Notes under the pieces: model-generated
Seen by the model: only the letters and a program-made list of their open reading frames with translations
The model's database searches: none
What the model was told of the DNA's origin: nothing
Part shown: positions 25,067 to 63,972 of the stretch, in pieces
Layout of the letters: every line of letters begins with the position of its first letter
Position numbering within the stretch: position 1 is the first letter of the stretch
DNA from: Limnomonas spitsbergensis
Lineage: Eukaryota > Chlorophyta > Chlorophyceae > Chlamydomonadales
Length of the DNA: 64,000 nt
NCBI GenBank assembly: GCA_037349105.1
Contig: JAYJMM010000081.1
Span: 1-64,000 of the forward strand
Reading direction: 5' to 3'
Program-made: the position numbers and the translations under genes

Positions 25067-25249
25067 CCAGTGGTCGTAAAGGAGTGGTCATAACAGGTGA
25101 TGTACATCTGGGGGGGGCTGGTGCTGTCTGGTACATAGGGGTAGGGGGTCTGGTCCTGCAAGCTGCTTCAGCTACATACAAGTCATGTATATCTGGGGGG
25201 GGCTGGTGCTGTCTGGTACATCTGAGCCCTAAAGGAGTGGTCATAACAG
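25067..25249 (+). CDS. Candidate upstream exon of the NYC1/NOL-like gene, in two copies
   Basis: Two copies of one coding edge occur 153 bp apart. Each reads K-G-V-V-I-T followed by the first base of a Gly codon and a donor: one ends at 25096 (then GTGATG), the other at 25249 (then GTGAGA). The phase (one base left over) fits the next exon at 27146, which supplies GT to make the Gly of the T-G-G-S-K-G-L-G dinucleotide-binding loop. Either copy could be the real exon: likely spans are 25067-25096 or about 25227-25249, using the AG before each. Which one is used cannot be told here. Confidence 0.45.
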
Positions 25250-25299
25250 GTGAGATCTACATCCAGATCCAGGGCTGAGGATGCGCCCTCTAGTAAATA

Positions 25300-26125: not shown

Positions 26126-26129
26126 TGGG

Positions 26130-26460: not shown

Positions 26461-26499
26461 TTTTATTTCTCTGCCGCCTTCTCGGCTTTGCAAGGGGAG

Positions 26500-27145: not shown

Positions 27146-27240
27146 GTGGCAGTAAGGGATTGGGCTTCGCCATGGCACGGGAGTTCCTCATGGCGGGCGA
27201 TTCAGTGGTCCTCTGTGGGCGGGATGCTGCCAGACTGCAG
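27146..27240 (+). CDS. NYC1-like: NYC1/NOL-like exon 1: nucleotide-binding loop
   Basis: Acceptor CTCAG, donor GTGAGG. It starts with two bases completing the Gly codon and ends in phase 0. It encodes G-S-K-G-L-G-F-A-M-A-R-E-F...V-V-L-C-G-R-D-A-A-R-L-Q, the glycine-rich loop, first helix and second strand of the SDR fold. The R-D after the second strand is typical of NADP-binding members. Confidence 0.85.
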
Positions 27241-30200
27241 GTGAGGAGGGACAAGGGGGCGGTGGACAGATTAAGTCTGGTCCATGTTGGTGGTGGGTCA
27301 GACAGGGATGGGCCAGGGTTCCGTAGCTCATTTGGTAGAGCATCATTCTGCGAAGAATGGGGATCTGGGTTCGAATCCCACTGGAGTCGCCTGAACGATT
27401 GGTAAAACCTCTGTGCGTGAAATGCCGTAGCTGGTCGTGAGGGAAATCGCAAAAGATTACTGAGGCACCGTCGAGCGATTGATCCACCATTGCAATGTCA
27501 CGGGGAAGAATGTGCGTATCCTGTACGGGATGGCTTGTCCTTAGGCATCGCCTATACCTAGGGATTCGTTAAACATCACGAAGGATTGGAAACCATACGT
27601 AGTTCTTACTTGTTACTGGAGGGTCAGATAGGGATGGGCCAAGCAAGGGGGAGGGGGGGGGTATCATGGCGGGGCGATTCAGTAGTCCTCTGTGGGAGGG
27701 ATGCTGTCAGGCTGCAGGCAAAGGAGGGACAAGGGGGGGGAGGGTGGAACAGGGCGTCAAATTTAGTTTGGACATAACCAGTGGAGGGACAGATGAGCAC
27801 ATAGACTTCAGGAACCAAAGACATCTGGACCCACAGCGCCTGACCCACTGACCATGGACTTCAGAGCCCACGTCTCAGCCCACCTTTGATTCCCCCACTG
27901 ACCAACGACCTCAGTGCCCACCACCGAACACACCTCTGAGTCTCCCACTGACCAATGGCCGCTGAGTCCACCTCTGAGCACACCTTTGTGCCCGCCCCTG
28001 AGTCCCCCACTGACCATGGACCTCAGTGCCCACCTCTTGAGCCCACCTCTGTGCCCACCTCTGAGCCCACCTCTGAGCCCACATCTGAGTCCCTGCTGAC
28101 CATTGACCTCAGAACCCATGGACTGATGAGCCACAGGCGCTCGGGCTAACTGATGTGCTGTCCCGTCAGCTATCGACCTGACTGCCTTGCTTGCTTTGGG
28201 TGCACGCAGGCGGCAACACAAGCCCTCGCTAACGAGTTCAGCCAGCCTCATTCTCTGGTGAGCCACGCTGCCCATGTCAACGCAATTTGGTTTTTAGTTC
28301 GCACTTCATTAAACACTGATTTCTTTGCCCCGCACACACGAAAGGTGTGAAAGACAAAACAAAAGGGATCGCTACCCGTTGGGGAGCGATTCCGCCCTGA
28401 GCACGGTAAGTGCACAATCCGGTCGAAGTTCTGATCACACTAAAATAAACAATGTTTGTTTTACCTCTAACACGCCAAAGGTGTGAAAGGCAAAATTAAA
28501 GGGATTGCTCTATCCCGCCCTAAGCACAGTAAGCACAAAAGCGCGTCCAAGAGGTCAATTTGGGTACCAGACTGCAGAGGTGCAGCCTGAACCGTTTGGG
28601 ACCCAAAGAGCACCCTGCACTAGTAAGTACACTAAAACCCTAAACCCTAAACCCTTAACCCTAAACCCTACACTAATACACTCCGGTGAGCATATGGCAA
28701 TGGGGGTAGGGTTACAGGTATAAGGTTAACGGTTTGGGGTTCAGGGTTTGAGTAAAATAAACAATGGTGAGCACCCTGTACTCGGGTGAGCATATGGCAA
28801 AGGGGTTAAGGGTTTAGGGTTTAGGGAAAGTAAACAGAAAACAGTGGTAAGCCTCGCTGCTCATGTTCACGCATTTCGGTTACAATTCAGTTCAAGCGTG
28901 GGTTTTGTACCACTTGACTTTAGGGATGTTCGAGTTCTGAGGACAGCAGGGTGGTGTAAGGTGCATGGCGGTTCATGGCGGTGAAGGATGTATGGCTGCG
29001 CATGGTGGTGTAGGTTGCATGGCTGCACAGAATAGTGTAAGGTGCATGGCTGCGCATGGCGGTGTAGGGTGCAAAGCTGGGCACAATAGTGTAAGATGCA
29101 TGGTGATGTATCGTGCATGGCGCAAATTTTGAACACAGCAGTCCATTCAACATCCAAGCTATTGACATAAGAGGCTATCAGCTGACTGGGTGTCAGGGTT
29201 ACGTGTGTGCCCACCTAGCTTATGAGGGCCTGCCTGAGCCGAACTCGCTTATAATTGCATGCCTGCCTGTTCCTGATGGCCTGCCTGTGTCTGCCAAGCT
29301 TACGAGGGCCTGCCTGCCTGTTCACGAGGCCCTGTCTTTGCCTACCTATTTTGCGGGGGCCTCCCTGCCTGTTAATGATGGCCTGACTGTCTCTACCTAA
29401 TTGTGGGGGGCATGCCTGCCTGCTGAACAGGGCCTGCCTGTGCCCACGTAACTTACGGGGCCTGTCTGCCTGCTGATCAGGGCATGTCTGTTCATGACTG
29501 ACTGCCTGTTCCTGTCCTTATGAACAGGTGGCCTGCCTGCCAGCTGATGTGTCCCGGCCGGCGGACATAGACGCTCTTGCTGCGTTTGCTGCAAGGACGC
29601 TTGGGAACGTGCACCTGTGGATCAACAACGCTGGACAGGTAGGGTTTAGGGTGTAGGGATCAGGGTTTAGGGTAACATGCACCCGTGGATCAACAATGCT
29701 AGACAGGTAGGGTTTAGGGTGTCGGGTGTAGGGATCAGGGTTAAGAGTAATGTGCACCTGTGGATCAACGATGCTGGACAGGTATATGTGCATGAGGTAG
29801 CGTGTGTGTGTGTGCGGGAGCATTGCTCCCAAAGGACCAGTAAGCAGCTGTATGCCAATGTTTACTGGAGACTGTCTGCTTGTTAGTGTAGGGTTTAGGG
29901 TTAAGCTACTGGAGACTATCTGTCTGTTTGCTGGTGTAGGGTTTAGGGTTAAGCTGCTGGAGACTATCTGTCTGTTTGCTAGTGTAGGGTTTAGGGTTTA
30001 GCTGCTGGAGACTATTTGTCTGTTTCCTAGTGTAGGGTTTAGGGTTAAGCTGCTGGAGACTATCTGTCTGTTTGCTGGTGTAGGGTTTAGGGTTAAACTG
30101 CTGAAGACTATCTGTCTGTTTGCTAGTGCAGGGTTTAGGGTTAAGGGTTTAGCTGTTGGAGACTTTATGTCTGAGTGCTAGTATAGGTTGAACCCTGATA

Positions 30201-33200
30201 ATAAATATATTTTTCCGTCTGCTCCCATTGCTCCTGGGCAATCCAGAATCCAGATAGCAGTTGTAGCTATATTGATAGTCCAGGGGAGCATTATTTCGAT
30301 GCAGTGGGCATCTGTTGGCCAAATTTGCTCTTTACTCGGTAACATTTGTTGGAGACTGTCTTTCTGCGTGCGTGTGTGAGTTGTGCCCTAATGATGTACG
30401 TCCGTTGGCCAACGCTCCCATTGCTCCTGCTGTGGATGTAGTGAGCACCTGGAGTTTTATTTTGGTAACTACAGAGCATCACACTTGATGCCTAGGTGAC
30501 TGGGAAACGGCTAAAAATAAGGTGGCCAACAATCAGCTCTGAAACCTAGACCCTGAACCCCCAACCCAGGTTGTCAGCACACCGATCTTAACCCTCGTGG
30601 ACCCTTGCCCCTTAACCCTAAACCCTACATCCTCATCGCATGATCAGTTGAAATGATCAGGTGACCAGCAACCATGTCTTGACCCTCAAGCCAGGTGACC
30701 AGCAAACATGTTTTACCCCCCCCCCCCCCCCTGGACCCTCAAGCCAGTTGACCAGAAAACATGTTTTACCCCCCCCCCCCTGGACCCTCAAGCCAGGTGA
30801 CCAGCAAACATGTTTTACCCCCCCCCCCTGGACCCTCAAGCCAGGTGACCGGCAAACATGTTTTACCCCCCCCCCCTGGACACTCAAGCCAGGTGACCAG
30901 CAAACATGTTTTACCCCCCCCCCTGGACCCTCAAGCCAGGTGACCAGCAAACATGCTTTACCCTCCTCCCCCTGGACCCTCAAGCCAGGTGACCAGCAAA
31001 CATATTTTACCCCCCTCCCCCCTGGACCCTCCACTTAGGTGACCAGCAAGCAGCTGTTGGCGGATGTTCCCTCGGAGGAGATACAATCGGCTGTGGGGGC
31101 TAATGTCATGGGATCACTGCTGGGAAGGTGGGTGACAGGGGGCTGGAATGGCTGCTAGTAAGGTAAAAGCCCTGAACTATCCATCAGGCTCATGTCATGG
31201 TGTCACTGCTGGGAAGGTATATTTATGGGTGGACGGTAGCGGCGCAGGTGTGAATCTGGCCCTGGCTGTGCTGTTTCCTTAACTCTCACTGGGTGAAGTG
31301 ATCGGCTCTCGTGTGATGGGGCTGCTGTTGGGGTAGTAAATTGGTAAGGAAGTCATGGCTCTAGTGTGATGGGGGCAATTCCGGGTAGGGTTACCCTAAC
31401 ACCTGAAACCAAAACTCTAAGCTAGGCTACTGTCGTGGGGTCAATGCTGGGAGGGTTATAAGTGATATAACCTTATATCCTTACATCCTTTTGCACAATC
31501 ACAAAGGAGGGAATTGTAGGGCAGCCATGCATTAGTGAACTGATGCTGCCTGATCCCTGCTGGTGATGAACCCTAACAGGGGTTTAGGGTCACGATCAAG
31601 CATTTCCACTCTTGAAGCCCCCAAAAACCTTCAGGTTTGTGCAGTCCTATGCTCTAACCTTGCTCATCCTCGATGGTAATCATTAAACCCTAAACCCTTA
31701 TTTGGCTGAGAGCCAGACCGCAGACCGTTATATAGCTGTTATGCAGCTGTGTAGCTGAGATACAGCTGAGGTGCAGCTAAGGCGTAGCTGAGGCACCCTC
31801 AAACTGACAATGACACGAACCTAACAAGCAAGGTTTCCACCACGCTGTCAAACAAAGGCCTTCCTCGACCCCAAACGCCTTCCTCGACCCCTTCAGGTTT
31901 ACCCCAAACCCTCAAACCCTTGAACATCATCTGTATCCCGTAACCCCAACCCTCGACCCCGTCTGACCTTCAACCCTGAACTCCAACCCTCAGCCTCTTC
32001 AGCCTTACCCAAACCCTCAGCCCCAACGCTGAGCCTTGTGAGGATAACCTGAACCTTGAACCCCAACCCTCAACCTTGACTGACTTTCAACTCTGAACGT
32101 AAACCCTCAGCCTCTTCAGCCTAACCTAAACCCTAAGCCCCAACGCTCAGTCTCTTGAGCCTAACCTGATGCCCTTAATCCCAACCCTCAACCTCACCTG
32201 ACCTTAGACCCTTCACCCCAACGATAAGTCCCTTGTGTCGAACCTTAAAACCCTGAACCCCAACCCTAAACCCTAACCATGAAACCTGTCAACGCTTGCC
32301 TATCTGCAGCCGAGCGGCGGTTCGTGTGATGAGGCAGCAGCCACCAGCTTCAAGGCAGCAGTACCACATCTTCAACCTCGGCTTCTCGTCGTGGGGGGCC
32401 TCCTTCTCAAAGTGAGGGAGGGAGGGCACTAAAAATGAATGTGCGTGCTATAAAACTCCGACACGGGAGGGTGGGGGCTAGTTTCCGGGTTTTCTTTCTG
32501 AGGCCGGAGGGGACCTACCAGTGCCCGCCTTGTTGATGGGGCACATCCTCCTTCAAGTGAGGGAGGCAGGGTGCTACAAAATGTCCGTGCTTGATACAAA
32601 ACACCCACACAGCATCCTTCTTCGAGTGAGGGAAGAAGCGCGCTAAACACATTTCTTTTTATCTGAGGGAGGAGGGGGCCTACCAGTGCCTACTCTGTGG
32701 GCTTTGCGTATCCTTCTCAAAGTGAGGGAAGTAGTGCGCAAACAATAAATGTATGTGCTTGATACAAAACTACAAAACTGTTAGACAGCCTCCTTCCCAA
32801 AGTTAAGAAAGGAGTGTTCATTTCTGAGGAGGTAGGAGGGGACCTACAAGTGCCTACTATGTTGACGGGGCGCCTCCTTCCCAATGCGAGGGAGAATGTC
32901 CACTCACAAAATGCATGTGCGTGATACACAACTCGTTCTCAGCATCATGCAGACTACGTCTGTGTGTCCTTAACCCTGAAGGCCTGAACCCTAATTGTAA
33001 ACCCTAATACCAACCGCCGCCCCAACTTTCTTCTGCAGGACGGCCGTAACTCACAAAATGACCAAGCGGAGCCTGACCCAGCTCACCCAGTCTTTGGCAG
33101 ATGAGCTGCAGCAAGCAGGTACGCAGGAAGTGTCCTAGGCCCATGCCGCACTGTTTTCTTTCTTTCTTACGCACAAGAGACTTTGGGGTTTTAGGGTAAA

Positions 33201-35990: not shown

Positions 35991-36009
35991 CTTAGGCTGT
36001 GCTTTAGAC

Positions 36010-56000: not shown

Positions 56001-59000
56001 CCTACCTCTCTCCTCCCTTCCCTTCTCTTCCTCCCCTCCCTATGCTCATCATTTTAAAACCTGCCTAAAAAAATGTGTATCCTCATGTACATCTCCATGT
56101 CCTAACGTGTCCCTCACAGCCTCTCCAATCTTTGTCTTCCCTCTAGGCCCTCAGGGGCCCCTCAGGATTTAGAATTTAGGCTTGGGGTAAAGGGCTCAAG
56201 CTTAAGCCATAAACCCACAGCCACTGGTGCTCCTGCCCTGCCTAACCCACCTAGTCTCCCCCCTACCCACCCTCTCTCCCCATCCCTGCCCCTGACCCCT
56301 CGCTTAATCTGGCCACCTTGTCCCCCTGACAACGCTGCCCCCTGTCCCTGCCCCCTCGTTTCCCCACCACCACCCCACCCCTTTTCGCGTACCGTCATCA
56401 CTGCCACATTGAATAGCGCCCACTGATGCCACGCCTTGGACCAGCTACTGGCCTGCTCCGTCGCCGCTCGCAGGGACGCCATCACCTCCGGCACCGTCCC
56501 CTCCTTATCCAGACTCCCACTCATGGTCCATTGCCACAGACCCAGGCGCAGGTACGCACGGGCGTGCAAGGAGGTGCGGGGTCGGTCCGCCAGCTTGGGG
56601 TTCACCGTCAACCCCGCAGTCAGGAGGCCAGAGGGGTCACCAGAGAGAGGCAGCATGAGACCCGCAGCGGCAGCTGCCGCGGCGGCGGCGCCGTCGCCAC
56701 CGCCGCCCTCCGAGTCCCGCGGCGACTGGACAGCTGCAACGGCCGCCCGCGGCGGCGACGCAGCCGCCGCTGCGGCTGTCGCCGCTGTCGCTGCCGCCGT
56801 CTGCTGCAGCTGCTGTGGCTGCAGCTCCTGGACCACGAGATGCTTGAGCCGTGCATAGGCCTCCTGGTGGTGCCCGCTGATCCAGATGTGCTTCAGGTAG
56901 GCGAGCATTACATTGGGAGCACCGCTGCCGGCTCCGTAACCTGGCTCGCCGGATCTGAGATCTAGCGGATTGTACCTGAGTATGGGCAGAGGCTATATTT
57001 GCTACCAAATGGATGTGAGTGGGGGCGTGTAACACGCTGATACATACTATGGTCGTGTTCAGTTTGCGAAGATATACCCCATACGATATGCTGATTCCGA
57101 TTTGCTCATTTGAACACACTGGTGGGGTTTGGGATTCAGGATAAAGGTTTTGACCAGAACCCCACTTTTTTTAATTCAGGTGCTTCTGTCTCGCGCATGT
57201 AACCACTTCACCCATACGCATACACAGCAACCAAAATCCTCTTCTTTTAGCCACCAAGCCACTTAACCCTAAACCCACGCACGAAGCCCTCCCGGTTGGT
57301 TCCAGCCTCTGATCTCCCCTCTCACCCCGCTGCCCTTGATTCACCCCCCCTCCCCCCTCACGCCCCTCAACCCCCCCCCCCCTCCCCCACATCCCTCCTC
57401 CTCCCACACAGAAACAAATCTGAGCAGCTCAAGAAGCATCCGCTCCGACTGCCCCCCTCCTCACCCCCCTCCTCGGCCCCCTCCCTCTCCCCCCCCTTCA
57501 CCACAAACAAACCTGAGAAGCTTGAATAGCATCAGCTCCGACTGCACCCCCCCTCTCACCCCCCTCCCTCTTCCCCCACTCACTTCCTCCCCTCACTCCC
57601 CTCCCTCTTCCCCCCTTCACCCCCCTCCCTCTGCCCCCCCCCCCCCCTCCCACACAAACATACCTGAGCAGCTTGAGTAGCATCCGCTCTGACTGCCGTC
57701 CACGACCGCTCTTGCGACACAGCGCTGCAAACTTGAGCCAGTTGTCGACGTCCTCATGCATGGGCACCACAAGCTGTCGCACCGTGAACAGGTTCTGCCA
57801 CACCTCCACATTGCGCTGCACGTATTTGAGCCGGTCACGCCAGACCTGCAGACAAGGGGAGGGGAGGGGGGGGGAGCGGGATGAATGTGTGAACAGGTTC
57901 TGCCACACCTCCACATTGCCCTGGACGTATTTGAGTCACGCCAGACCTGCAGAGGAGAGGAGGGGAGGGGGGAGGAGCGGGATGAATGTGTGAACAGGTT
58001 CTGCCACACCTCCACATTGCCCTGGACGTATTTGAGTCACGCCAGACCTGCAGAGGAGAGGAGGGGGGTAATAAATGCGTGCTTGAAATTCATGAAAGGT
58101 GGGAGCAAGAGCAGGGATCAGAGATCAGGGATCAGGGATCAGGGATCAGGGATCAGGGTGCAAGGTTCAGGGATCAGGGATCAGGGGTCATGGATCATGG
58201 ATCATGGGTCATGGATCATGGATCATGGGTCAGGGGTCAGGGATCAGGGATCAGGGGTCAGGGATCAGGGGCCAGGGATCAGGGATCATGGGTCAGGGAT
58301 CATGGATCATGGGTCAGGGGTCAGGGGCCAGGGATCAGGGATCAGGGATCAGGGGCCAGGGATCATGGATCAGGGGTCAAGGATCAGGGGCCAGGGATCA
58401 TGGATCATGGGTCAGGGGTCAGGGATCAGGGATCAGGGGTCAGGGATCAGGGGCCAGGGATCAGGGATCAGGGATCAGGGGCCAGGGAGGTGCAGTATTT
58501 GCATTTTGAGAATCTTCTCTACAAGTGCACAAACACAAATATTTGACTTACAAACATTACCCCACATACACACACGCACACAAGCCCGCCTCCCCCCCCC
58601 ACACACACAACCCCCAACTTCCCCCCACACCCGCACACAAGCCCCCCCCCCCCTCCACACTCGCACCTGTTTAATGAAGTGCGTGCGCGCCTCCCCGTCC
58701 GATTCTGCCGCGCCGCCCCTCCGTCCAATCAGCAACGCCTTCTTATAGTCCAGCACCTCCTCTAGCTCCGTCAGCTGCTGCACGCGCACCTACACCAGAT
58801 ATTGGGTTATAGGGTTTAGGGTTTAGGGTTCAGGGTTAAGGGCTTAGGGTTGGGGGTTTAGGGTCAACCTTTTAATAATATACAGCACCGCCTCTAGCTC
58901 CGTCAGCTGCTGCACCTGCACCTAAACCAGAGATTAGGTGCGGGTGCCCTGTGTTAACAAGCAATTACAAGTTATTACAAGGATGACAAGGATTACAAGG

Positions 59001-62000
59001 ATTACACGGATTACACGGATTACAAGGATTACAAGGATTACATGGATGACAAGGATTACAAGGATTACAAGGATTACATGGATGACAAGGATTACAAGGA
59101 TTACAAGGATTACATGGATGACAAGGATGACAAGGATGACAAGGATGACAAGGATTTGCTTTACAAGCAGACATCCATGTTTACTTGTAAAGCAAATCCT
59201 CTGAACCAGCCAGCTGTTGCACCTGCCTTTCAGCGCCGAGTCCATTGTTCCGTTTGTTTTTTCACTGGGTTCATTAAACAGAGTTCAAAACACCTTGCGT
59301 GGTTCAGTACCTCCTGCGGCTGAAGTACAAGAAGGATTTGTATCCAGCCACAGCTGATGCAATCAAACACATTTCACACATGCTTCACACACACTTCACA
59401 CATATTTCAAGCTTCCAGGTTTCTTGCACCGGGTTCAGAGCACAGATCCTCCTTCCAATACAAACACTACGCAAAGCGCAGCCATCTGTTGCCGACACAC
59501 CTAGATCAGGGCTCAGAGTTCAGTCTAACACCCATTGGCTGTTTGGTATAGGTTTAAGCTTTTCGGCTGTAGGCTGTAAAATTCAGTATGATAAGGGTTT
59601 CCATCTGCAGGGTTTACGGCTAATACTGAACCTAATGGGTTTGTTGTATATGGTTGAGGGTTTAGGCTGAGGGGTTTAGGCTGAGGGGTTTAGGCTGAGG
59701 GGTTTAGGCTGAGGGGTTTAGGCTGAGGGGTTTAGGCTGAGGGGTTTAGGCTGAGGGGTTTAGGCTGAGGGGTTTAGGCTTAGGGTTTTAGGCTGAGGGG
59801 TTTAGGCTGAGGGGTTTAGGCTGAGGGGTTTAGGCTGAGGGGTTTAGGCTGAGGGGTTTAGGCTTAGGGGTTTAGGCTTAGGGGTTTAGGCTGAGGGGTT
59901 TAGGCTGAGGGGTTTAATGCTGAGCCCAATGAGTTTATGGTGCATATTTTAGGCTGTAGGGTTTAGGGTTTAGGCTCAACCCAGAGTGCTATTGCCATAC
60001 GGCCGAAGGTCTAGGGTGTAGGGTGTGTTCAGCTGAAGCCCGCTCATAGTTGTAAGGGTATAGGGTGTACGATGCAGGGTAAAGTAGCTGCCCGCTCATA
60101 GGGCCAAGGGTTTAGGGTATAGGGTCTAAGATCTAGGGTGTAGGGTGCAGGGTCTAGGCTATTGGGTATAGGGTCTAGATTATTGGGTTTAGGGTTTAGG
60201 GTCTAAGGTCTAGTGTGTAGATTGTAGGGCCTATGTTATTGAGTATATTCCTCGCCCAGCGCGCTCCTCCGGACCCTGAAACCCTCTAACGCGTTAGAAT
60301 CTAACGCTGTCGCTTACGACACTCACCTGTATTGGTCTAGATTATTGGGTCTAGGGTCTAGGTTATTGGGTCTCAGGTCTAGGGTGTAGGGTAAAGCTGC
60401 TGCCCGTGCACCATCTCTAAGGTTGGGGATCAGCCCAATGTGTGAATATCACAGGGTGCAGGCTTTAGTTAAAGAGTCTATTCAGCTGCTGCCCACACCC
60501 CATGTCCGCTCTAGTTTAGGGTGTAGGGTATAGGGTTCAGGCTTTAGGGTATAGGGTTCATATATTAGGGTTTGAGGGTACATTCAGCTGCTGCACACAC
60601 ACCATATATGTGTAGGCCCGCTCTAGTTTAGGGTTCATGGTTTAGGGTATAGGGTTCAGGCTTTAGGGATCTAAAGGTCTACTCAGCAGCTGCCCACACA
60701 CCTGGTTTGTGTAGGCCTGCTCTAGTTTAGGGTTTGGGGTTAAAAAAAAAGGGTCCAGGCTTAAGGATTACGGGTCTACTCAGCAGCTGCCCACACACCA
60801 TGTCTGTGTAGGCCCGCTCGTAGCTCTCGCCGACCAGCGCGGCAAAGTCCGTGCACATCAAGTCTCGTGTGCGCTCAATGTTCACCCGAGCGTCATCATA
60901 GTCATCCATCTTCACGTTGAGCGCGGCGCGCAGGAAGGCACCGGCCGCGGTGTGCGTGCGGCTGTCGGGCGAGTCCACCGTCTCGACGTAGGTGGCCATG
61001 TCGTCCCAGTGGCCCATCTGTGAATGGCACGCAATTTATTTTAAATTTTTGGACCGTACGTGGTAGTGGACCGTACGTGGTAATGGACCGTACGTGGTAA
61101 TGGACCGTACGTGGTAATGGACCGTACGTGGTAATGGCTTGGCCGTGAAAGCATTCTTTGTATTTATATCTATTTCCAGGTACCGGTAAGAAGGGACAAC
61201 AAATCATTGCCGGTAGGAGACCGGCCGTGAAACTGTTGAACCACCAGAGTCAAGCAAAACACACGGCACATTTCATGCAAGGGACAGGTGCAAAAAGCAG
61301 ATGGAGCGCTAAACAGATAGTATCTTTTTTTCGTGGTCTTTACAAAGTATGAGGCTAGTATGCCACGTACGAAATACCCTAGAGCCCCCCCCACACACCT
61401 TCTACCAAAAAAAACAAACACACTGCGGCCCAGGTATGAACCCCATACCTGCAAAGTATGGATCCCCACACCTTCCAGACGTGACTCCTCCATACCTGCC
61501 AGGTATGACCCCCCTACCTGCCAAGCGGGCTTGAGCCGGACACACCTGCCAGGTATGAACACCCCTACTTGCCAAGCAGGTATGAACCCTCCATACCTGC
61601 CAGGCAGCGTGCGCCGCGATATGCATATCTTATGCCTATCTCTCGCGGGTATGACCCCCTCCCTACTTACCAACCAGGTATGACACCCCCTCCTACTTGC
61701 CAACCAGGTATGAACCCCCCTACTTGCCAACCAGGTATGAACTCCCCATACCTGCCAGGCAGCATGCGCGGCATTCATGCCCATCTCTTGCAGGAATGAC
61801 CCCCCCCCACTATTTGCCAAGCAAATATGGACCCTCCATACCTGTCAGGCAGCGTGGGCCGCGATATGCCCATCTCTCGCAGGTATGAACCCCCCTACTT
61901 GCCAACCAGGTATGAACCCCCCATACCTGCCAAGCAGCATGCGCGGCATTCATGCCCATCTCTCGCAGGTATGACCCCCCCACACTTGCCAACCAAGTAT

Positions 62001-63972
62001 GAACCCTCCATACCTGCCAGGCAGCGTGCGCCGCAATCATGCCCATCTCTCGCCGCATATGCAGCTCGCTCTTGTGCCACTCGCGGCCGCACAGGCTGCT
62101 CAGCCGCTCCCACTCTGCCAGGGCGGAAAGGCTGCGCATCTGACCCAGTAGGGCCTTGTGACGCTCGTGAGGCAGCAAGCCGTCCGGGGGGCCGGGATCA
62201 TCATCAAGTCTGTAATAGAGGGTGAAGGCACAGAGGGATCAACAGGTTGAATGGGGACCAGCAAGGCCTTATGGCACTCGTGAGGCAGCAGGCCGTCTGG
62301 GGGGCGGGTTTGTCGACCAATCTGTAACATACAGTGAAGTGTGGAGGGTGAAGGGTTCCAGAATGGGTGGGGCTGGTGTGGTAGCTTCTCATACCTGCCT
62401 TCTTTCATGCCCATGTTGTTGTGCTGCTGCCTGAAACCCCAAACCCCGTACCTCTCACCCTTACCTCTCACCCCAAAACCGTTACCTATAACCCCCAAAC
62501 CCTTACCTCTATCCCCAAAACCTGTACGCCGAAACCCTTACCTCTTACCCCCAAACCCTTTACCTCCAACCCCAAGCCCCCAGATCCGTCACCCCACCCA
62601 CCTCTTGGTGTACGCTTCCAAAGCCTCATCCCATCGACACAGCTTCTCATACCAGCCCTCCTTGAGGTCCATATTCAGGTGCTTCTGCGCGAACGTCAGG
62701 ATCCCATCTGCGGCCTCCGGCTGCCTGAGCTGGTTGTTGATGTGGATGAGCGCCTCCACCGCTGTCAGCGGGCTGGTCTGGAACTCGAGCTCCTTGTAGT
62801 GCAGCGCCTTGTAGGGTCGGGAAAAAATGGTCGAAAAAGGGTCGTGCAATGCAGATGTAGTGCAGCGCCTTGTAGTGCAGCGCCTTGTAGGGGTGCACAG
62901 GTCGGAAAAAAGGGTCGTGCAGTGCATATGTTGAATATTAAAAGGCTTATACATAAACTGTAAATGCGTTTAGCTTTTGATCCCTGTCGATGAGTTACGC
63001 CAACGGTGCACGCAGTAAAAAGTGATATGGGCCTGCCATTCCTCCCCCGATTCGAAAACGTGCGCAAGTCAGGGTTCAGGGTTTTGAAAAGTGCTCACTC
63101 GGCAGGCCACCACCACTACCTTGGCAAAGGCGTGGCACTTCTCCGCGAGGGCGCCCAGCGTGCGCGTGTCAAGGGGCAGGCGCTTGTCGTCATGCTCCAT
63201 GAACTCCGCGAGGTTGAGGAGTGCGGTCACGGTCTCGGGAGTGATGGTGGGGCTGGCCAATGCAGCTTCCAGGCTGCAAGGGAGGAGGAGGGGGGCGGGG
63301 GAGGGCGCTAAGGGGTGGGCTGGGGGAGAGGTGGGAGAGGGAGTGATGGTGGGGCTGGTCAATGCAGCCTCCAGGCTGAGAATCAGGGGCAGAGGGGATT
63401 CGCATGAGGATTGAGATAGGATGGAACTGTGCGTCCTGACAGTTGCTGGGAGGGCACATGCCCGCCGCAGCTCTTCAAACAGCGACAAGAGTGATGGTGG
63501 GGCTGGCTAGCGCGTCCAGTATGGCCACGCGAAGGACAGCGTCGGGCATTGGGGTGGGCTGGCTAGCGCGGCCTCGCGGCTACAGGAAGTCAGGAGTGAA
63601 TGAACAGAGAGGATGGAGGAGGCGTGGCAGGAAAGGGGTCTCAGGGTTTAAGGGGGGTGTCAGGGTTTTATCGCAAAGCAAGGCGGGTCCTAAGCTTAGG
63701 GCTTAAGGCTAAGGGTTCAGTCCTACAAATTAAAATTACACAGATTCGCTGGGGACATGCGTGGGGTTCGGGGTCAAGCCCGGAGAAGGCTTTAGTCCTT
63801 AACCCTTTGTAGGGCAAGGGGATTAGTTCAGCTGAGGGTTCAGCCCTGAGCCCTATCACACGGTTCACATGCATCACCTGCGCACGAGCTGCTCCTGAAG
63901 GTGGCCGTCCAGTTCGGACCAGCAGGACACGAAGCCCGGGGCAAACAGCTCCTTGGCCATCGAGGGATGCAC
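37986..63972 (-). CDS. TOR: TOR (target of rapamycin) serine/threonine kinase, C-terminal 1292 residues, 5' partial
   Basis: Join of 23 minus-strand exons, from 63878-63972 down to 37986-38063. They total 3879 nt with a TAG stop at 37986-37988, and every junction phase agrees. Order: FAT solenoid (residues ~1-590 of this part, with W-x-[26 protein letters not shown] and S-L-C-x-K/R-x-W motifs), end of FAT (587-710), FRB (about 711-830), kinase (about 856-1172) with G-L-G-D-R-H-P-S-N (1049-1057) and H-I-D-F-G-D (D1071), a low-complexity linker, and a C-terminal FATC ending G-W-C-P-F-W. This is the PIKK that, with Raptor and LST8, links nutrients to growth. Start codon and HEAT repeats lie beyond 64000. 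The kinase core is close to plant TOR. Confidence 0.95.
38070..38460 (-). other. Intronic open frame with a Cys-x-x-Cys cluster
   Basis: A minus-strand frame at 38179-38385 encodes A-R-C-Q-I-C...K-I-C-G-P-C-L-K-K...A-C-L-D-I-G, spaced like a zinc ribbon or the Cys-rich tail of piggyBac-type transposases. It lies in the last TOR intron and is not needed for the TOR frame. It may be a transposon remnant; assignment uncertain. Confidence 0.25.
38462..38800 (-). repeat. C-rich repeats with copies of the FATC exon donor
   Basis: The end of the neighbouring exon (plus-strand reading CCCCACCTGTGC(C/T)G(C/T)CAC then CGTATCGCTC) is duplicated at about 38608-38636, with shorter CCCCCACATGCCCC units throughout. 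Runs of 8-12 C are frequent. Confidence 0.75.
38801..38931 (-). CDS. TOR: TOR exon: N-terminal part of FATC
   Basis: 131 nt, two leading bases, phase 0 end, donor GTGGGG, acceptor CTTGCAG. It encodes [14 protein letters not shown] then [11 protein letters not shown] then [16 protein letters not shown] is the plant-type TOR sequence before FATC. Confidence 0.93.
39060..39615 (-). repeat. About 42-60 bp tandem repeats built on the linker exon donor
   Basis: Ten or so units read, on the plus strand, CCCACCCA(T/C)CA(G/T)GCCCT followed by AATCCTACACCCTGA and CCCTA(T/G)AA. ACCCACCCAT matches the donor plus exon end at 39616-39626. The filler is CCCTAAA-like. Confidence 0.8.
39622..39774 (-). CDS. 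TOR: TOR exon: linker between kinase and FATC
   Basis: 153 nt, two leading bases and one trailing base. It encodes a Gly/Pro/Ala-rich stretch followed by [19 protein letters not shown]. This is the negative-regulatory-domain position, which is poorly conserved in all TORs; plants have an R-E-K-E-I-L-Q-A-V here. Phases match both neighbours. Confidence 0.85.
39960..40596 (-). repeat. CCCAACCACCCCAACCGCC-type tandem repeats
   Basis: Intron filled with 18-45 bp units of CCCAACCACCCCAACCGCC and CGCTCATCAACCCACGCCC. A cluster at 40100-40215 is two near-identical 58-bp copies. Echoes of the neighbouring exon donor (CCCACCTGATG) are weak here. Confidence 0.8.
40597..40849 (-). CDS. TOR: TOR exon: C-lobe of the kinase
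   Basis: 253 nt, phase 0 to 1, acceptor GTGCGCAG, donor GTGGGA. It encodes [21 protein letters not shown] then ...[26 protein letters not shown], close to plant TOR, then an Ala/Gly-rich tail that starts the variable linker. Confidence 0.97.
40850..41488 (-). repeat. Intron with copies of the DFG-exon donor edge
   Basis: Pyrimidine-rich on the plus strand. The exon end and donor (plus reading CTACTCACCTTTTCCGGGAACTTC) recur as CAATTCACCTTCTT...AACT at about 41386-41410 and 41436-41462, and more weakly near 41150-41185. CCTAAACCCTACACCCTTGAA is repeated at 41290-41340. Confidence 0.75.
41489..41623 (-). CDS. TOR: TOR exon: catalytic and activation loops
   Basis: 135 nt, phase 0 to 0, acceptor CCCGTCAG, donor GTGAGT. 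It carries [18 protein letters not shown] (catalytic Asp, His and Asn) and [10 protein letters not shown] (metal-binding Asp), then M-N-R-E-K-F-P-E-K. All catalytic residues are intact. Confidence 0.98.
41640..41885 (-). repeat. Two decayed copies of the catalytic-loop exon 5' edge
   Basis: GATCACCCAGCCCCAGGATGTAACCCACCTG at 41702-41732 and a shorter version at 41838-41868 repeat the acceptor and first ~25 bases of the exon. They are joined by GGGGCAATGCAGTCAA(G/C) filler of about 120-bp period. Confidence 0.85.
41990..42228 (-). repeat. Duplicated exon edge and AACCC(G/T)GAA filler
   Basis: A copy of the next exon's donor edge (plus reading GATGGAAACGCCTACCAT then AGACATGA) lies at 42040-42065. 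CATGCCCACTCAATGCACGC-like units follow. Confidence 0.75.
42229..42312 (-). CDS. TOR: TOR exon: kinase hinge-to-C-lobe segment
   Basis: 84 nt, phase 0 to 0, acceptor GGATCCAG, donor GTAGGC. It encodes [17 protein letters not shown] then [11 protein letters not shown], matching [11 protein letters not shown] in plant TOR. Confidence 0.96.
42350..42685 (-). repeat. About 80-bp repeats with exon donor copies
   Basis: CCCTAATGCAGGTCCTCCCCCTAAAGGA occurs at 42529-42556 and 42609-42636, copying the plus-strand reading of the next exon's end (CTTATGCAGGTCCTCCCC at 42686). CTCCAACC and poly-C filler separate them. Confidence 0.85.
42686..42827 (-). CDS. TOR: TOR exon: N-lobe/hinge
   Basis: 142 nt, one leading base, phase 0 end, acceptor CTGGCAG, donor GTGGGA. 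It encodes [15 protein letters not shown] then [25 protein letters not shown]-x-L and K-V-E-V-F-E are TOR-invariant. Confidence 0.97.
42828..43215 (-). repeat. Four tandem copies and one long copy of the N-lobe exon 5' edge
   Basis: The plus-strand motif GAGATCTTGCGAGAGTCC(C)TGACAGGA is repeated at about 42868, 42942, 43006 and 43055 with AAAAAAGGGTGAAGGGTGA filler. A longer copy (43128-43185) includes about 50 bp of exon. Each keeps the acceptor-like CTGACAGG/CTGCCAGG. Confidence 0.9.
43216..43735 (-). repeat. Unique intron part, then a 24-bp repeat
   Basis: 43216-43470 is non-repetitive with nothing recognised. 43480-43615 holds six copies of the 24-bp unit TTTTCAGCAACTCAAACCCC plus ACAC. 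Confidence 0.85.
43780..45200 (-). repeat. 27-bp tandem array, about 50 copies
   Basis: The unit is CTCACATGCCCTCCTCACCC plus ACACTCC on the plus strand, with CCC(A/T)CCTCAC variants. Each unit includes CCTCAC, the reverse complement of the GTGAGG donor of the adjoining exon (45212-45217). No frame within 27 bp meets a stop, giving 440-498-codon Ser/Pro/His-rich open frames on the plus strand that are not genes. Confidence 0.95.
45218..45417 (-). CDS. TOR: TOR exon: N-lobe, G-H-E-D-L-R-Q-D
   Basis: 200 nt, phase 0 to 2, acceptor CCCTAAG, donor GTGAGG. It encodes [19 protein letters not shown] then ...[27 protein letters not shown]. The conserved Glu/Asp of the N-lobe helix are intact. Confidence 0.98.
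45420..46060 (-). repeat. 26-bp array and a long decayed copy of the neighbouring exon
   Basis: 45460-45815 holds about 13 copies of GGGGAGAGGAAGGGGGGCAG plus GGCTCA. A partial exon 5' edge copy (CGCAGGTCCTTGTGGCCCTTTA) lies at 45838-45859. At 45930-46062 there is a broken copy that includes GCTCTTAGGTGGTGCAG, GGCATGGTGTTCACCA and AGAGCTGCATCACGCGCTCG from the exon. Confidence 0.9.
46135..46590 (-). repeat. 54-bp tandem array derived from the inside of a TOR exon
   Basis: About eight copies of a unit with GGACAGGCCCTGCTCTGAGG, TTGTGCGGTCGTGCACC and CAGCATTGAGGAAGGC on the plus strand. It corresponds to the inner part of the exon at 45310-45365 (GACAGGTCCCGCTCTGAGG...GTGCGGTCATTGGCCAGCATG). 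Coding sequence from the middle of an exon has therefore been amplified within the intron. Confidence 0.9.
46740..47084 (-). repeat. TAGCTGAA(T/C)GG repeats and exon donor copies
   Basis: Units of 10-14 bp (GGTAGCTGAA, TGCATGGCAGC) surround decayed copies of the exon end. CACGTACCTTAAAGGAACATGGTA (46910-46934) and CACATACCTTGTGCAGGAACATGTATTC (46968-46995) mimic CACGTACCTTGAGCAGAAACATGTATTC at 47077. Confidence 0.85.
47085..47221 (-). CDS. TOR: TOR exon: start of kinase domain
   Basis: 137 nt, two leading bases, phase 0 end, acceptor GCTCCAG, donor GTACGT. It encodes [11 protein letters not shown] then [20 protein letters not shown] then Y-M-F-L-L-K. K-Q-R-P-R-K and G-S-N-G are the glycine-loop region; the last Lys corresponds to the human ATP-contacting Lys2187. 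Confidence 0.98.
47275..47335 (-). repeat. Copy of the kinase-start exon 5' edge
   Basis: GAGGTGCGAACGCCACAATG then GTCGCCAGGGCCTCACCGG on the plus strand repeats about 45 bp from within the exon (47171-47212), with substitutions. It is another exon piece within the flanking intron. Confidence 0.8.
47336..47835 (-). repeat. 26-28 bp repeat, CAGCTGTACACCCTAAGCCC type
   Basis: About 14 units of CAGCTGTACACCCTAAGCCC plus TAGTTT with modest divergence, preceded by GGGTGCAAGGTACAGGGTGT units. The content is telomere-like (CCCTAAGCCCTA). Confidence 0.85.
48053..48179 (-). CDS. TOR: TOR exon: end of FRB and linker to kinase
   Basis: 127 nt, phase 0 to 1, acceptor TTTTCAG, donor GTGTGG. It encodes [16 protein letters not shown] then L-E-L-Q-Y-V-A-P then [14 protein letters not shown] holds residues equal to the human rapamycin contacts W2101, D2102, Y2105 and F2108. 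Confidence 0.97.
48180..48690 (-). repeat. Intron with copies of the FRB exon acceptor edge
   Basis: GGTCCCAGGCCTG recurs at 48297-48311. A longer copy at 48390-48428 (CCGCTTGCTGATGCATTTGA then ATAAAATGTCCCAGGTC) mirrors about 40 bp of exon start. TTAAGGGTTTGGGGTTTAG-type units fill the rest. Confidence 0.75.
48691..49871 (-). repeat. About 52-57 bp tandem array, ~20 copies, each with a splice donor copy
   Basis: On the plus strand the unit reads CCTGCCCCACCTGGTGCAGT then GTGG(G/A)TCTCTC(T)CAC then CCCAGCCTGTCCACCCC. On the minus strand each unit contains CTGCACCAGGTGGGGCAGG, the last nine bases of the upstream exon plus the donor. The exon itself (49872-49941) is the right-hand end of the array. 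The 384-425-codon open frames seen on the plus strand are artefacts. Confidence 0.95.
49872..49941 (-). CDS. TOR: TOR exon: middle of FRB (70 nt)
   Basis: One leading base, phase 0 end, acceptor TTGTCAG, donor GTGGGA. It encodes [16 protein letters not shown] then E-A-E-L-H-Q. The leading base completes the Arg codon begun before the GC-AG intron, giving Y-G-R-E-L-T-E-A like Y-x-x-E-L-K-E-A of plant TOR. Confidence 0.93.
49942..51260 (-). repeat. CCCT-rich arrays in the GC-AG intron
   Basis: 49942-50285 is mostly unique, with short ATCCATCAG units. 50290-51260 is (CCCT)n mixed with a ~55-60 bp unit ending CTACTCTTCGCAGGAGTTAC, repeated about 12 times. On the minus strand this is purine-rich, with GTAACTCCTGCGAAGAG copies. 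Confidence 0.9.
51282..51359 (-). pseudogene. Duplicate of the 3' half of the FRB exon
   Basis: 78 bp repeat the exon at 51403-51480 with three or four changes, including the GC donor (51276-51281). The sequence between copies also repeats the intron start (AACTCTACAACTTGC). It keeps an open frame to the donor but has no clean acceptor, so it is most likely an unused duplicate; alternative use cannot be excluded. Confidence 0.8.
51403..51545 (-). CDS. TOR: TOR exon: FRB, with GC donor
   Basis: 143 nt, phase 0 to 2, acceptor TTTTCCAG. It encodes [19 protein letters not shown] then L-H-E-M-M-D then [12 protein letters not shown]. The intron starts GCAAGT (51397-51402 on the plus strand as ACTTGC), the consensus of GC-AG introns. 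The Ser equal to human S2035 is present. Confidence 0.95.
51560..52019 (-). other. Intron, mostly unique
   Basis: No gene recognised. Open frames of 60-83 codons on the plus strand (51715-51966) are not conserved-looking. Confidence 0.4.
52020..52160 (-). repeat. 52-bp tandem repeats of the FRB-start exon donor edge
   Basis: Two to three copies of GATCTCCTCAACACATGTCA then GATCTCATGCCAGATCTCACG, mirroring the plus-strand reading CTCCTCACCTCATGCCAGATC of the exon end at 52153-52173. Confidence 0.88.
52161..52256 (-). CDS. TOR: TOR exon: start of FRB
   Basis: 96 nt, phase 0 to 0, acceptor TTGGCACAG, donor GTGAGG. It encodes [21 protein letters not shown] then [16 protein letters not shown]-x-W-H-E is the TOR FRB helix. 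Confidence 0.97.
52440..52930 (-). repeat. Two diverged ~200-bp copies of the next exon's donor edge
   Basis: CACCCTCTCCAGCACTGCGTACGCCGCGTTGCG (52517-52550) and CACCCACCTGCTCCAGCACTGCAAGCGC...GTTGCGCCTG (52724-52770) repeat about 45 bp of exon plus donor (52925-52970). The filler repeats AACTTGCCACACAATCGCCACGCGACTG and ACAAATAAATA. Confidence 0.88.
52931..53218 (-). CDS. TOR: TOR exon: last part of FAT
   Basis: 288 nt, phase 0 to 0, acceptor CCTGCAG, donor GTGGGT. It encodes [13 protein letters not shown] then ...[16 protein letters not shown] then [17 protein letters not shown]-x-P-Q-I-I-A-R-I is near-identical in plant and human TOR. Confidence 0.98.
53240..54735 (-). repeat. Long intron with nested repeats: poly-C units and diverged exon-edge copies
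   Basis: Two ~1 kb halves (53270-54270 and 54350-54735) repeat the same order: GGTTAAATG(G/C)AACCC, AGACCAGGTGTTCATATCCC, CACAGACTGCTTTAACACAA and CAGCCTGCAAGTTCAGACCC. Poly-C runs of 9-17 and exon-derived units (CTGACCTGCAGGTTGCCAGT) occur near 53780, 54080, 54170 and 54255. No gene recognised. Confidence 0.85.
54736..55026 (-). repeat. Three near-intact tandem copies of a 66-nt exon piece
   Basis: Copies at about 54757-54822, 54846-54911 and 54942-55007 each repeat the last ~60 bases of the exon at 55027-55110. Each is bordered on the minus strand by CTAG on the 5' side and GTCAGC on the 3' side. Each is 22 codons long, phase 0 to 0 and open, and would add [20 protein letters not shown] if spliced in. 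The gaps between copies are about 25-30 nt of G-rich sequence, very short for introns. Confidence 0.85.
55027..55110 (-). CDS. TOR: TOR exon: FAT, G-F-F-R-S segment
   Basis: 84 nt, phase 0 to 0, acceptor CAGCCCAG, donor GTCAGC. It encodes [18 protein letters not shown] then G-D-R-T-G-N-L-Q. It matches V-P-A-V-Q-G-F-F-R-S-I of human mTOR. The acceptor was chosen to keep phase 0 with the exon at 56393; an upstream AG would break the frame. Confidence 0.85.
55111..55506 (-). other. Intron, purine-rich on plus strand
   Basis: Contains GGGGAGAGAGAGAGGAGG-type low complexity at 55150-55270. Nothing else recognised. Confidence 0.4.
55507..55856 (-). repeat. 20-bp tandem array with telomere-like core
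   Basis: About 17 copies of TATAGGGTTTAGACTGCAAA with single-base variants (CACTGC, GACTGA, GTTCAG). The unit contains one plant-type TTTAGG(G)-like core per period. Confidence 0.95.
55880..56392 (-). repeat. CT-rich low complexity and intron remainder
   Basis: 55885-56045 consists of CCCTCCCTTCCCTTCTCCTCCTAC-like units. 56046-56392 is C-rich intron without clear periodicity. Confidence 0.6.
56393..56975 (-). CDS. TOR: TOR exon: large FAT exon with Ala-rich insertion
   Basis: 583 nt, one leading base, phase 0 end, acceptor CATACTCAG, donor GTACGC. It encodes Y-N-P-L then [10 protein letters not shown] then A-R-L-K-H-L-V. An ~80-residue Gln/Ala/Gly-rich low-complexity insertion follows, then L-R-L-G-L-W-Q-W-T and [25 protein letters not shown]. 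The flanks match plant and human FAT; the insertion sits where TORs vary in length. Confidence 0.95.
56976..57290 (-). other. Intron, unique part
   Basis: Non-repetitive sequence; no recognised feature. Confidence 0.4.
57300..57663 (-). repeat. Two copies of the FAT exon donor edge in C-rich filler
   Basis: CACAGAAACAAATCTGAGCAGCTC then AAGAAGCATCCGCTCCGACTG (57407-57451) and CACAAACAAACCTGAGAAGC then TTGAATAGCATCAGCTCCGACTG (57501-57543) repeat about 35 bp of exon end (57664-57695), joined by CCCCCCTCC-rich sequence. Confidence 0.88.
57664..57845 (-). CDS. TOR: TOR exon: FAT, H-E-D motif
   Basis: 182 nt, phase 0 to 2, acceptor TGTCTGCAG, donor GTATGT. It encodes [17 protein letters not shown] then [26 protein letters not shown]-x-x-x-W-L-K-x-A-x-L-C-x-K-S-G is a TOR FAT signature. 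Confidence 0.97.
57846..58070 (-). repeat. Two ~100-bp tandem copies of the FAT exon 5' edge
   Basis: GTGTGAACAGGTTCTGCCAC then ACCTCCACATTGCCCTGGACGTATTTGAG and CCAGACCTGCAGAGGAGAGG recur at 57888-57960 and 57989-58062. They copy about 65 bp of exon plus acceptor, with a deletion that removes the C-G-G-T bases before GTCACGCC. Confidence 0.93.
58100..58490 (-). repeat. GGATCAG/GGGTCAT short-unit array
   Basis: Fifty or so 7-8 bp units alternate among GGATCAG, GGGTCAG, GGATCAT and GGGCCAG on the plus strand. All frames are open for 130-280 codons because the units lack stops; not coding. Confidence 0.93.
58667..58789 (-). CDS. TOR: TOR exon: FAT, T-E-L-E-E-V segment
   Basis: 123 nt, phase 0 to 0, acceptor GGTGTAG, donor GTGCGA. 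It encodes [19 protein letters not shown] then ...T-H-F-I-K-Q. It matches S-E-L-E-E-V-I-x-Y-K of mTOR, with a short A/E/G-rich insertion. Confidence 0.95.
58877..58928 (-). pseudogene. Copy of the T-E-L-E-E-V exon 5' edge
   Basis: CAGCACCGCCTCTAGCTCCG then TCAGCTGCTGCACCTGCACCTAAACCAGA duplicates about 45 bp of exon start and acceptor (58750-58797) with three or four substitutions. The TTTAGGG-like filler between the copies (58800-58865) is typical of this window. Confidence 0.9.
58965..59160. repeat. 9-bp repeat (ACAAGGATT/ACAAGGATG)
   Basis: About 21 units of ACAAGGATT, ACACGGATT, ACATGGATG and ACAAGGATG in a partial higher order (two or three ATT units then one ATG). It leads into a perfect hairpin. 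Confidence 0.92.
59151..59200. repeat. Perfect 17-bp inverted repeat with 16-nt loop
   Basis: AGGATTTGCTTTACAAG (59151-59167) and its exact reverse complement (59184-59200) flank a 16-base loop. The left arm merges into the 9-bp array. It could be a foldback remnant of a mobile element or a product of array replication. Confidence 0.9.
59201..59645 (-). other. Intron, unique part
   Basis: Non-repetitive intron DNA apart from TTCACACA(T/C) units near 59365-59405. No gene recognised. Confidence 0.4.
59646..59925. repeat. 14-bp array, GGGGTTTAGGCTGA
   Basis: About 19 near-identical copies with a few GGCTTA variants. The unit resembles a doubled, drifted telomere-like motif (TTTAGG). Confidence 0.95.
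59940..60798 (-). repeat. TTTAGGGT(A/G)TAGGG filler and three copies of the FAT exon donor edge
   Basis: Irregular GGGTCTAGG/GGGTGTAGGGT units run to about 60480. Decayed copies of the exon end with donor (CAGCTGCCCACACACC(A/T) then TGT...GTAGGCCCGCTC) lie at about 60480-60515, 60588-60625 and 60674-60724, before the true one at 60785-60820. Confidence 0.85.
60799..61017 (-). CDS. TOR: TOR exon: [11 protein letters not shown] segment
   Basis: 219 nt, phase 0 to 0, acceptor TTCACAG, donor GTGTGT. It encodes [11 protein letters not shown] then G-A-F-L-R-A-A-L then [14 protein letters not shown]. It matches L-G-Q-W-D-S-M-E-E-Y and G-E-S-Y-S-R-A-Y of mTOR. Confidence 0.97.
61040..61140. repeat. 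17-bp array with GGACCGTACGTGGTAAT
   Basis: Five tandem copies. The core CCGTACGTGG contains the palindrome GTAC/CGTACG. It lies in an intron just upstream (in transcription order) of the G-E-S-Y exon. Confidence 0.93.
61430..62013 (-). repeat. 50-100 bp repeats with eight or more copies of a FAT exon donor edge
   Basis: CCATACCTGCCAGGCAGC(G/A)TGCGC then CGC(G)ATATGCCCATCTCTCGCAGG and shorter (C/T)ACCTGCCAGGTATGA units fill the intron. CATACCTGCCAGGCAG is the exon end plus donor of 62014. Several copies keep up to 50 bp of exon. Confidence 0.92.
62014..62209 (-). CDS. TOR: TOR exon: FAT, L-G-Q-M-R-S-L segment
   Basis: 196 nt, one leading base, phase 0 end, acceptor ATTACAG, donor GTATGG. 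It encodes [10 protein letters not shown] then ...[18 protein letters not shown] then ...[11 protein letters not shown]. It matches M-L-G-R-M-R-C-L-E-A-L-G-E-W...A-A-A-A-A-W in mTOR. Confidence 0.97.
62225..62345 (-). pseudogene. About 80-bp copy of the preceding FAT exon's 5' half
   Basis: CAGCAAGGCCTTATGGCACT then CGTGAGGCAGCAGGCCGTCTGGGGGGCGGG repeats exon positions 62146-62195 with substitutions. An acceptor-like CTGTAAC follows. It is the start of the exon, duplicated into the upstream intron. Confidence 0.88.
62400..62601 (-). repeat. CCCCAAACCCTTACCTCT repeats
   Basis: Eight to nine units of about 18 bp (ACCC(C)CAAACC(C)TTACCTCT) fill the intron beside the next exon's donor. Confidence 0.85.
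62602..62807 (-). CDS. TOR: TOR exon: [12 protein letters not shown]
   Basis: 206 nt, phase 0 to 2, acceptor CCTACAAG, donor GTGGGT. It encodes [13 protein letters not shown] then [15 protein letters not shown] then ...[15 protein letters not shown]. It is near-identical in layout to mTOR (A-L-H-Y-K-E-L-E-F ... L-Q-Q-P-E-A-A-x-G-V-L). Confidence 0.98.
62808..62945 (-). repeat. Two or three copies of the A-L-H-Y-K exon 5' edge
   Basis: GTAGTGCAGCGCCTTGTAG recurs at 62856-62874 and 62873-62890. AGGTCGGAAAAAAGGGTCGTGCA(A/G)TGCA(G/T)AT repeats beyond. The copied unit spans acceptor and first 15 exon bases, so the exact acceptor used is ambiguous by one unit. Confidence 0.88.
62946..63119 (-). 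other. Intron, unique
   Basis: Short intron portion; no recognised feature. Confidence 0.4.
63120..63273 (-). CDS. TOR: TOR exon: [13 protein letters not shown]
   Basis: 154 nt, one leading base, phase 0 end, acceptor CTTGCAG, donor GTAGTG. It encodes L-E-A-A-L-A-S-P then ...[19 protein letters not shown] then [24 protein letters not shown] is a hallmark of the mTOR FAT domain. Confidence 0.98.
63274..63600 (-). repeat. Three decayed copies of the L-L-N-L-A-E exon 5' edge
   Basis: GTGATGGTGGGGCTGG(T/C)(C/T)A(A/G)(T/C)GC recurs at 63341-63366 and 63490-63513, and GGGGTGGGCTGGCTAGCGCGG at 63550-63570. They copy the plus-strand reading of the exon start (63240-63273). Confidence 0.88.
63878..63972 (-). 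CDS. TOR: TOR, most upstream exon in the window (FAT)
   Basis: 95 nt, phase 0 to 2, acceptor CTGGCAG, donor GTGATG. It encodes [20 protein letters not shown] then ...H-L-Q-E-Q-L-V-R, matching [14 protein letters not shown] of human mTOR. The preceding exons lie beyond 64000. Confidence 0.95.

Follow-up and report, generated by a model that had tools for sequence, protein, structure and literature searches.

Exon-edge copies and decoy splice sites in introns of Limnomonas spitsbergensis: probable filling of old introns by local tandem duplication

Genes and features of the window

The window analysed in this study comprises the first 64 kb of contig C81 of Limnomonas spitsbergensis, the genome of which contains 260,226,709 bases in 124 contigs. 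Two genes lie on opposite strands, and the homologs of both point to green algae. The first is a NOL/NYC1-like chlorophyll(ide) b reductase gene on the plus strand (27146-35990), which was modelled without its 5' part as nine exons from the SDR glycine-rich motif to the stop (27146-27240, 28210-28257, 29528-29638, 31039-31127, 32310-32411, 33039-33118, 34061-34124, 34826-34922 and 35802-35990). Its protein shares 71% identity with a protein of Chlamydomonas sp. UWO 241, and one match in the protein search was named chlorophyll(ide) b reductase; we take this gene to be NOL/NYC1 and refer to it as NOL. The second is a TOR kinase gene on the minus strand (37986-63972) with 23 exons, A to W, in a single frame to the stop, the protein of which is 77% identical to an Edaphochlamys protein over 60% of the query. 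TOR extends upstream to about 87.5 kb of the contig, where 12 more introns were modelled. Both models have continuous frames and GT-AG introns (one GC-AG) and are consistent with the homologs, from which, together with the reading frame, the splice sites in use were assigned. In NOL intron h|j, a microexon at 35716-35746 was rejected despite flanks that resemble a perfect AGGT intron birth, because the homologs pass straight from exon h to exon j.

Further repeats surround the genes. The start of the contig is occupied by a 21.6 kb GGCATC hexamer array or satellite (7-21609), and a satellite of about 11 kb with 91-nt units lies upstream of TOR (L015 5909-10000 and L016 1-6983). Among 30,042 intron nucleotides of both genes there are 51 telomere-like heptamers (TTTAGGG/CCCTAAA), as opposed to 31 in 100 kb of other stretches (L004-L013).

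Copies of exon edges in the window introns

According to the sequence-only reading that preceded this study, most introns of both genes are filled with repeats containing a part of the neighbouring exon together with its splice site. The 15 places it named (eight donor, six acceptor and one exon-interior) were all found as described using TRF arrays, sequence reading and the copy search, and exon-edge copies with a score of at least 26 for a 40-nt edge are indeed present in the majority of the window introns (24 of 30 introns, 27 of 60 edges). Of the 30 edges on either side, 16 donor and 14 acceptor edges reached p ≤ 0.01 in a comparison with 100 dinucleotide shuffles each. The comparison with other introns, which included the upstream part of TOR, likewise agreed with the reading, as 39 of 84 edges matched their own intron, compared to 6 of 3444 pairs of an edge and another intron.

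In NOL (plus strand), intron c|d carries two further copies of 33-36 nt of the exon c end with GT on the donor side (29639-29784) and seven junction-spanning copies of the type AG|GTGACCAGCAA on the acceptor side (30678-31038), while intron e|f (32412-32917) contains four donor-edge copies with GT, GT, GC and GT. Intron h|j (34923-35801) is made up largely of repeats that resemble the donor edge ATACAG|GTGAGG and fails the 40-nt edge test. The donor side of this intron (34918-35720) and that of TOR intron M|N (48691-49871) had been counted among the clear cases; an exon share is present in both, but it is short, namely 12-14 nt of exon h (edge score 19) and 9 nt of exon M (edge score 18), and the 40-nt test is blind to either. 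Intron M|N (48694-49871, minus strand) is a 54-nt array with 21 exact repeats with CTGCACCAG|GTGGG, which includes the 9 nt of exon M.

The remaining TOR introns described here are likewise given for the minus strand. On the donor side, intron D|E (61567-62013) contains four copies of 35-40 nt of exon D with GT intact, intron I|J (53492-55026) eight donor-edge copies that include as many as 60 nt of exon I and retain GT in six cases, and intron L|M (51264-51402) a copy with an identity of 0.99 of 59 nt of the exon L end and its GC donor. On the acceptor side, two exon B start copies, one of which extends across AG, are found in intron A|B (63339-63519), one copy that comprises AG together with 58 nt of exon D in intron C|D (62265-62339), two that comprise AG together with 60 nt of exon G in intron F|G (57846-58068), six exon Q start copies, five with AG, in intron P|Q (42828-43268), and a copy of the exon S start (45 nt) with AG in intron R|S (41686-41753). 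Intron O|P (46003-46590) combines a 60-nt copy of the exon P start (46086-46003) with a 53-nt array of eight units; this array (46135-46590) copies the interior of exon P, as had been noted, with a score of 46 against maxima of 26 after shuffling and 20 for the other TOR exons. The statement that the exon is copied with its splice site holds for most copies, but the dinucleotide is lost in some (GG and GG in Q|R; TT, AT and TT in K|L).

Intron P|Q also contains a 29-nt array of 47 units (43845-45206), the unit of which has a donor-like GTGAGGAGGG and, as read, no exon sequence. Upstream of the window, a 62-nt TOR exon occurs with its flanks four times in tandem, AG and GT being present in every copy (C81 81882-82271, L014 7882-8271, minus strand); a single copy at most can be used per mRNA, because two would shift the frame.

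Occurrence in other genes

The pattern is also present in other genes, at variable intensity. In addition to the 30 window introns, 65 introns of upstream TOR, CCT-eta, CPN60-beta and dynein heavy-chain genes were modelled, and an adjacent exon edge is copied in 59 of these 95 homology-modelled introns. The paralog pairs of CCT-eta (L017/L018) and CPN60-beta (L019/L020) were chosen solely via Pfam PF00118; they show copies at 14 of 68 edges and in 14 of 34 introns, while unrelated pairs match in 5 of 2176 cases. Four dynein heavy-chain loci, which are four of the genes in the PF12774 listing, show copies at 16 of 40 edges, spread over 12 of their 20 introns; their selection was only partly blind, as two loci (C75, C92) were chosen after partial repeated matches had been noticed in them. 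The corresponding dynein control is 24 of 760 other pairs, the dyneins being paralogous and their exons mutually similar. One poor dynein intron (L024 intron 4) was dropped, so that 19 of the 20 dynein introns entered the tests with 95 introns.

Gene-finder models in nine of ten fixed-coordinate stretches gave copies at 18 of 96 edges and in 14 of 48 introns, compared to 21 of 4512 control pairs, with transposon-like and wrong models included, and 18 of 41 coding segments have a copy nearby. Both counts leave out L015 and L016 and are indicative only, because L007 and other transposon-like as well as low-complexity segments are included. Benchmarked on upstream TOR, the gene finder identified all 12 donors and 9 of the 11 acceptors and also called extra exons, some of them outside the modelled stretches.

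The intensity varies widely, from an intron coverage of 0.02 in one CPN60-beta paralog to 0.39 in TOR and NOL, and the predicted introns of the other stretches have a duplication coverage of 0.00-0.18. Intron size differs strongly between genes or contigs. A TCP-1 family gene (L021, C22) has gene-finder introns of just 66-235 nt and lies in a locus without a TRF array, and a 6.4 kb array with a 23-nt unit (L009 1-6390) lies directly downstream of a predicted minus-strand gene. A duplication specific to introns, with a coverage of 0.381 compared to 0.066 and 0.081 in intergenic DNA near the window, is not claimed, because the intergenic contrast is inconsistent outside the window region. A report of the pattern in L. 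spitsbergensis was not found in the titles and abstract openings of the open-access papers searched.

Age of the introns and the question of intron birth

The CCT-eta and CPN60-beta paralogs were modelled along their pairwise alignment, and every intron position has GT-AG in either paralog. All 17 modelled intron positions are common to both, with unequal lengths (for example 641 and 255, 1161 and 1941, 901 and 1799 nt), and the four dynein models share an intron at LK|ALFR, each with copies there. Since these positions are shared, the introns concerned predate the gene duplications; the divergence of the two paralog pairs at four-fold sites is 0.69 and 0.32. At six edges a score of 26 was reached in one paralog only, and with scores of 14, 25, 17, 12, 20 and 25 in the other, three of them are clear absences. 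Four edges have copies in both paralogs, and of these eight copies six are nearer to their own exon, one is a tie and one is nearer to the exon of the other paralog. As 17 of the 68 paralog edges also match the intron of the paralog at the same junction, these matches, together with the tie and the copy closer to the other paralog, suggest that some copies may predate the gene duplications. Copy identities range from 0.70 to 1.0 and the paralogs differ; copies of all ages occur side by side, in agreement with the earlier impression that the process looks ongoing. Judged by these comparisons of sequence, they are old introns with a mostly young filling that is turning over.

It had also been suggested that introns may arise in this way as well as grow. 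Under the Rogers/Hellsten model, exon segments with AGGT would be duplicated in tandem to form them, and the arrays would be remnants of births. We consider this unlikely as a general explanation, and a general birth signature was rejected. Across the 95 introns, the first nucleotides of the intron resemble the start of the next exon no more than those of mismatched pairs do (mean 6.05 of 20 compared to 6.13), and the positions shared between the paralogs and at LK|ALFR are older than the gene duplications. The similarity of the intron end to the end of the previous exon does exceed that of mismatched pairs, by a marginal amount (6.77 compared to 6.39, sd 1.90, 95 introns), with TOR 83525/82054 and TOR I|J each reaching 12 of 20, the 99.9th percentile of mismatched pairs, and for 28 of the 95 introns the mature junction reads AG|GT, as the birth model would have it.

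The best individual candidate is TOR intron E|F (58790-60798, minus strand), in which a copy of the contiguous exon E end and exon F start is located at 60626-60584 with a score of 61. The joint query gains 27 over either side alone, while the next value among the 95 introns is 10 and 1900 mismatched pairs reach at most 12; moreover, the first 20 nt of the intron match the start of exon F at 15 positions, as opposed to a maximum of 14 among 8930 mismatched pairs. However, the acceptor side does not carry the exon E end expected after such a birth (4 of 20 match). A general origin of the copies from cDNA was rejected, as matches resembling spliced junctions occur in 6 of 95 introns, compared to 6 of 760 control pairs, and are clearly two-sided in E|F only. 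For E|F itself, tandem duplication in an intronless ancestor would be the best explanation, with a copy of a spliced transcript as the alternative. That this intron was born by tandem duplication of a continuous exon, and that the same process floods old introns with strong decoys, is a reading we put forward tentatively and regard as possible rather than probable.

Duplication profile across exon borders

TRF arrays occupy 0.373 of 66,951 intron nucleotides, with a median period of 19.5 nt (quartiles 11-38.5) and some units near or above 100 nt. Local duplication in TOR is nearly all on the same strand (direct 0.376 and inverted 0.001 of windows). In the 95 introns, coverage is 0.299 (0.242-0.370) within introns and 0.240 (0.177-0.295) in junction-spanning windows, and it declines in exon windows starting 0-50 nt into the exon from 0.229 over 0.185, 0.148, 0.107 and 0.054 to 0.033, and to 0.028 by 60 nt. 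It climbs again to 0.087 at 80 nt and 0.106 at 100 nt, as would be expected if the windows touch the far edge of short exons. Donor and acceptor coverage are unequal across the gene sets (0.448 and 0.232 in TOR and NOL, 0.132 and 0.190 in the others).

The copies were further described in a set of 76 introns (TOR, NOL, CCT-eta and CPN60-beta, without the dyneins), in which a copy contains at least 10 nt of exon. The 159 copies are distributed over 68 of 152 edges and affect 55 of the 76 introns; 146 of the copies cross the junction. In the controls, a match was obtained for 6 of 1520 pairs of an edge and another intron, and for 1 of 152 edges when the intron was reverse-complemented.

Such a large share of copied edges could mean that the junctions are targeted, with transcription- or splicing-linked breaks or AGGT microhomology directing the duplication, and the sequence-only reading had likewise assigned the AG|GT junction a special role. 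This role was not borne out, and targeting was rejected on the coverage profile, which has no peak at junctions: the ratio of junction to intron coverage is 0.80 over the 95 introns and also 0.80 in the window genes (bootstrap 0.55-1.14). A crude blind model derived from intronic TRF periods, which are biased to small units, predicts a comparable drop, with ratios from 0.66 down to 0.13 at depths of 12-75 nt. The shallow exon ratios of 0.77, 0.62 and 0.50 (0-20 nt) somewhat exceed its prediction of about 0.46, 0.36 and 0.28 (interpolated at depth plus window length), so that a modest extra tendency at junctions is possible, but directed duplication as the explanation of the pattern appears quite improbable. 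We conclude that, as far as these profiles indicate, junctions are probably not noticeably targeted and a duplicated splice site would cost little.

Decoy splice sites

The numerous decoy splice sites anticipated earlier were confirmed by the count over the 76 introns. The splice dinucleotide is intact in 119 of the 146 spanning copies (GT in 53 of 70 donors, AG in 66 of 76 acceptors), and this retention is about equal to the neutral expectation from overall identity (0.76 for GT and 0.82 for AG). Scored with a matrix built from this set of 76 introns, donors reach 5.38 as intact decoys and 6.14 as real sites, and acceptors 6.04 and 6.80, respectively; background GT and AG score -1.20 and -2.53. 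The decoy equals or exceeds the real site in strength for 39 of 53 donors and 31 of 66 acceptors. A frame preference of the decoys was not found, as 14 of the 53 donors and 20 of the 66 acceptors are separated from the real site by a length divisible by 3.

The strength of the decoys, together with the four TOR exon copies that each have AG and GT, would fit a selection of the copies as useful redundant splice sites or alternative exons. We hold this to be very improbable, since the near-neutral retention of GT and AG and the missing frame preference indicate that decoys are neither purged nor kept in frame, and the copies turn over between paralogs. An artefact of long-read assembly, for which near-identical copies such as that in L|M (0.99) might be cited, is practically dismissed, as 129 of the 159 copies are less than 95% identical and the longest array at the named places measures about 1.2 kb, compared to a PacBio read L50 of 32.9 kb at 63x with Illumina polishing according to the genome report (PMC11228838).

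Proposed mechanism

The pattern is probably explained by border-blind tandem duplication combined with purifying selection, which together would fill introns with exon-edge copies that decay near-neutrally. Introns would be hot spots of local same-strand tandem duplication that is blind to exon borders. Duplications wholly within exons would be eliminated by selection, whereas those inside introns or across a junction would be nearly neutral, because the exon-proximal splice site still yields the right mRNA. In this manner, exon edges and their splice sites would enter the introns, multiply with the rest of the sequence and decay at an about neutral rate. The mutational step may be replication slippage, unequal exchange or fill-in repair of staggered breaks. 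Because the decoys differ little in sequence from the real sites, we infer that the splice site is chosen by position, for example by exon definition. Of the earlier tandem-duplication interpretation, the growth of introns by duplicated segments that often span the splice junction is thus retained, while the role of the AG|GT junction and the general origin of introns are not.

Comparison with known systems and significance

Cases of intron gain by tandem duplication have been described for ATP2A1 (Hellsten et al., 2011) and for potato RdRp (both according to PMC4974935), in the latter of which the duplicate is an intron-exon structure. As in these cases, tandem duplication transports exon sequence and splice sites in L. 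spitsbergensis. In contrast to them, the copies of the alga are located within introns whose positions are shared and do not give rise to new exon boundaries, with the possible exception of TOR E|F, and many edges are copied per gene. Intronic minisatellites are head-to-tail arrays of short units of varying identity within introns. The introns of the alga resemble them in this respect, but their units often take in coding exon edges with intact-looking splice sites (59 of 95 introns). Repair of staggered breaks and patch repair in plants are expected to leave short local duplications on the same strand, and the copies described here are similar in pattern. The four TOR exon copies with AG and GT are also reminiscent, in their arrangement, of tandem exon duplication and mutually exclusive exons, the latter of which use more than one copy in mRNA.

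The genome offers natural tests of splice-site choice, with many near-identical donors and acceptors beside the real ones, and as such decoys adjoin the real sites, the core site sequence alone cannot account for the choice. The cell must somehow bypass many strong false splice sites. Since full-length transcripts of L. spitsbergensis have already been published (PMC11228838), the question of splice choice is directly testable. Furthermore, intron growth, which would be blind and nearly neutral here, becomes separable from intron birth, and a measured baseline is available for judging candidate births such as TOR E|F. If the birth of this intron by tandem duplication were true, intron birth, intron growth and a splice-site choice by position only could be watched in one organism.
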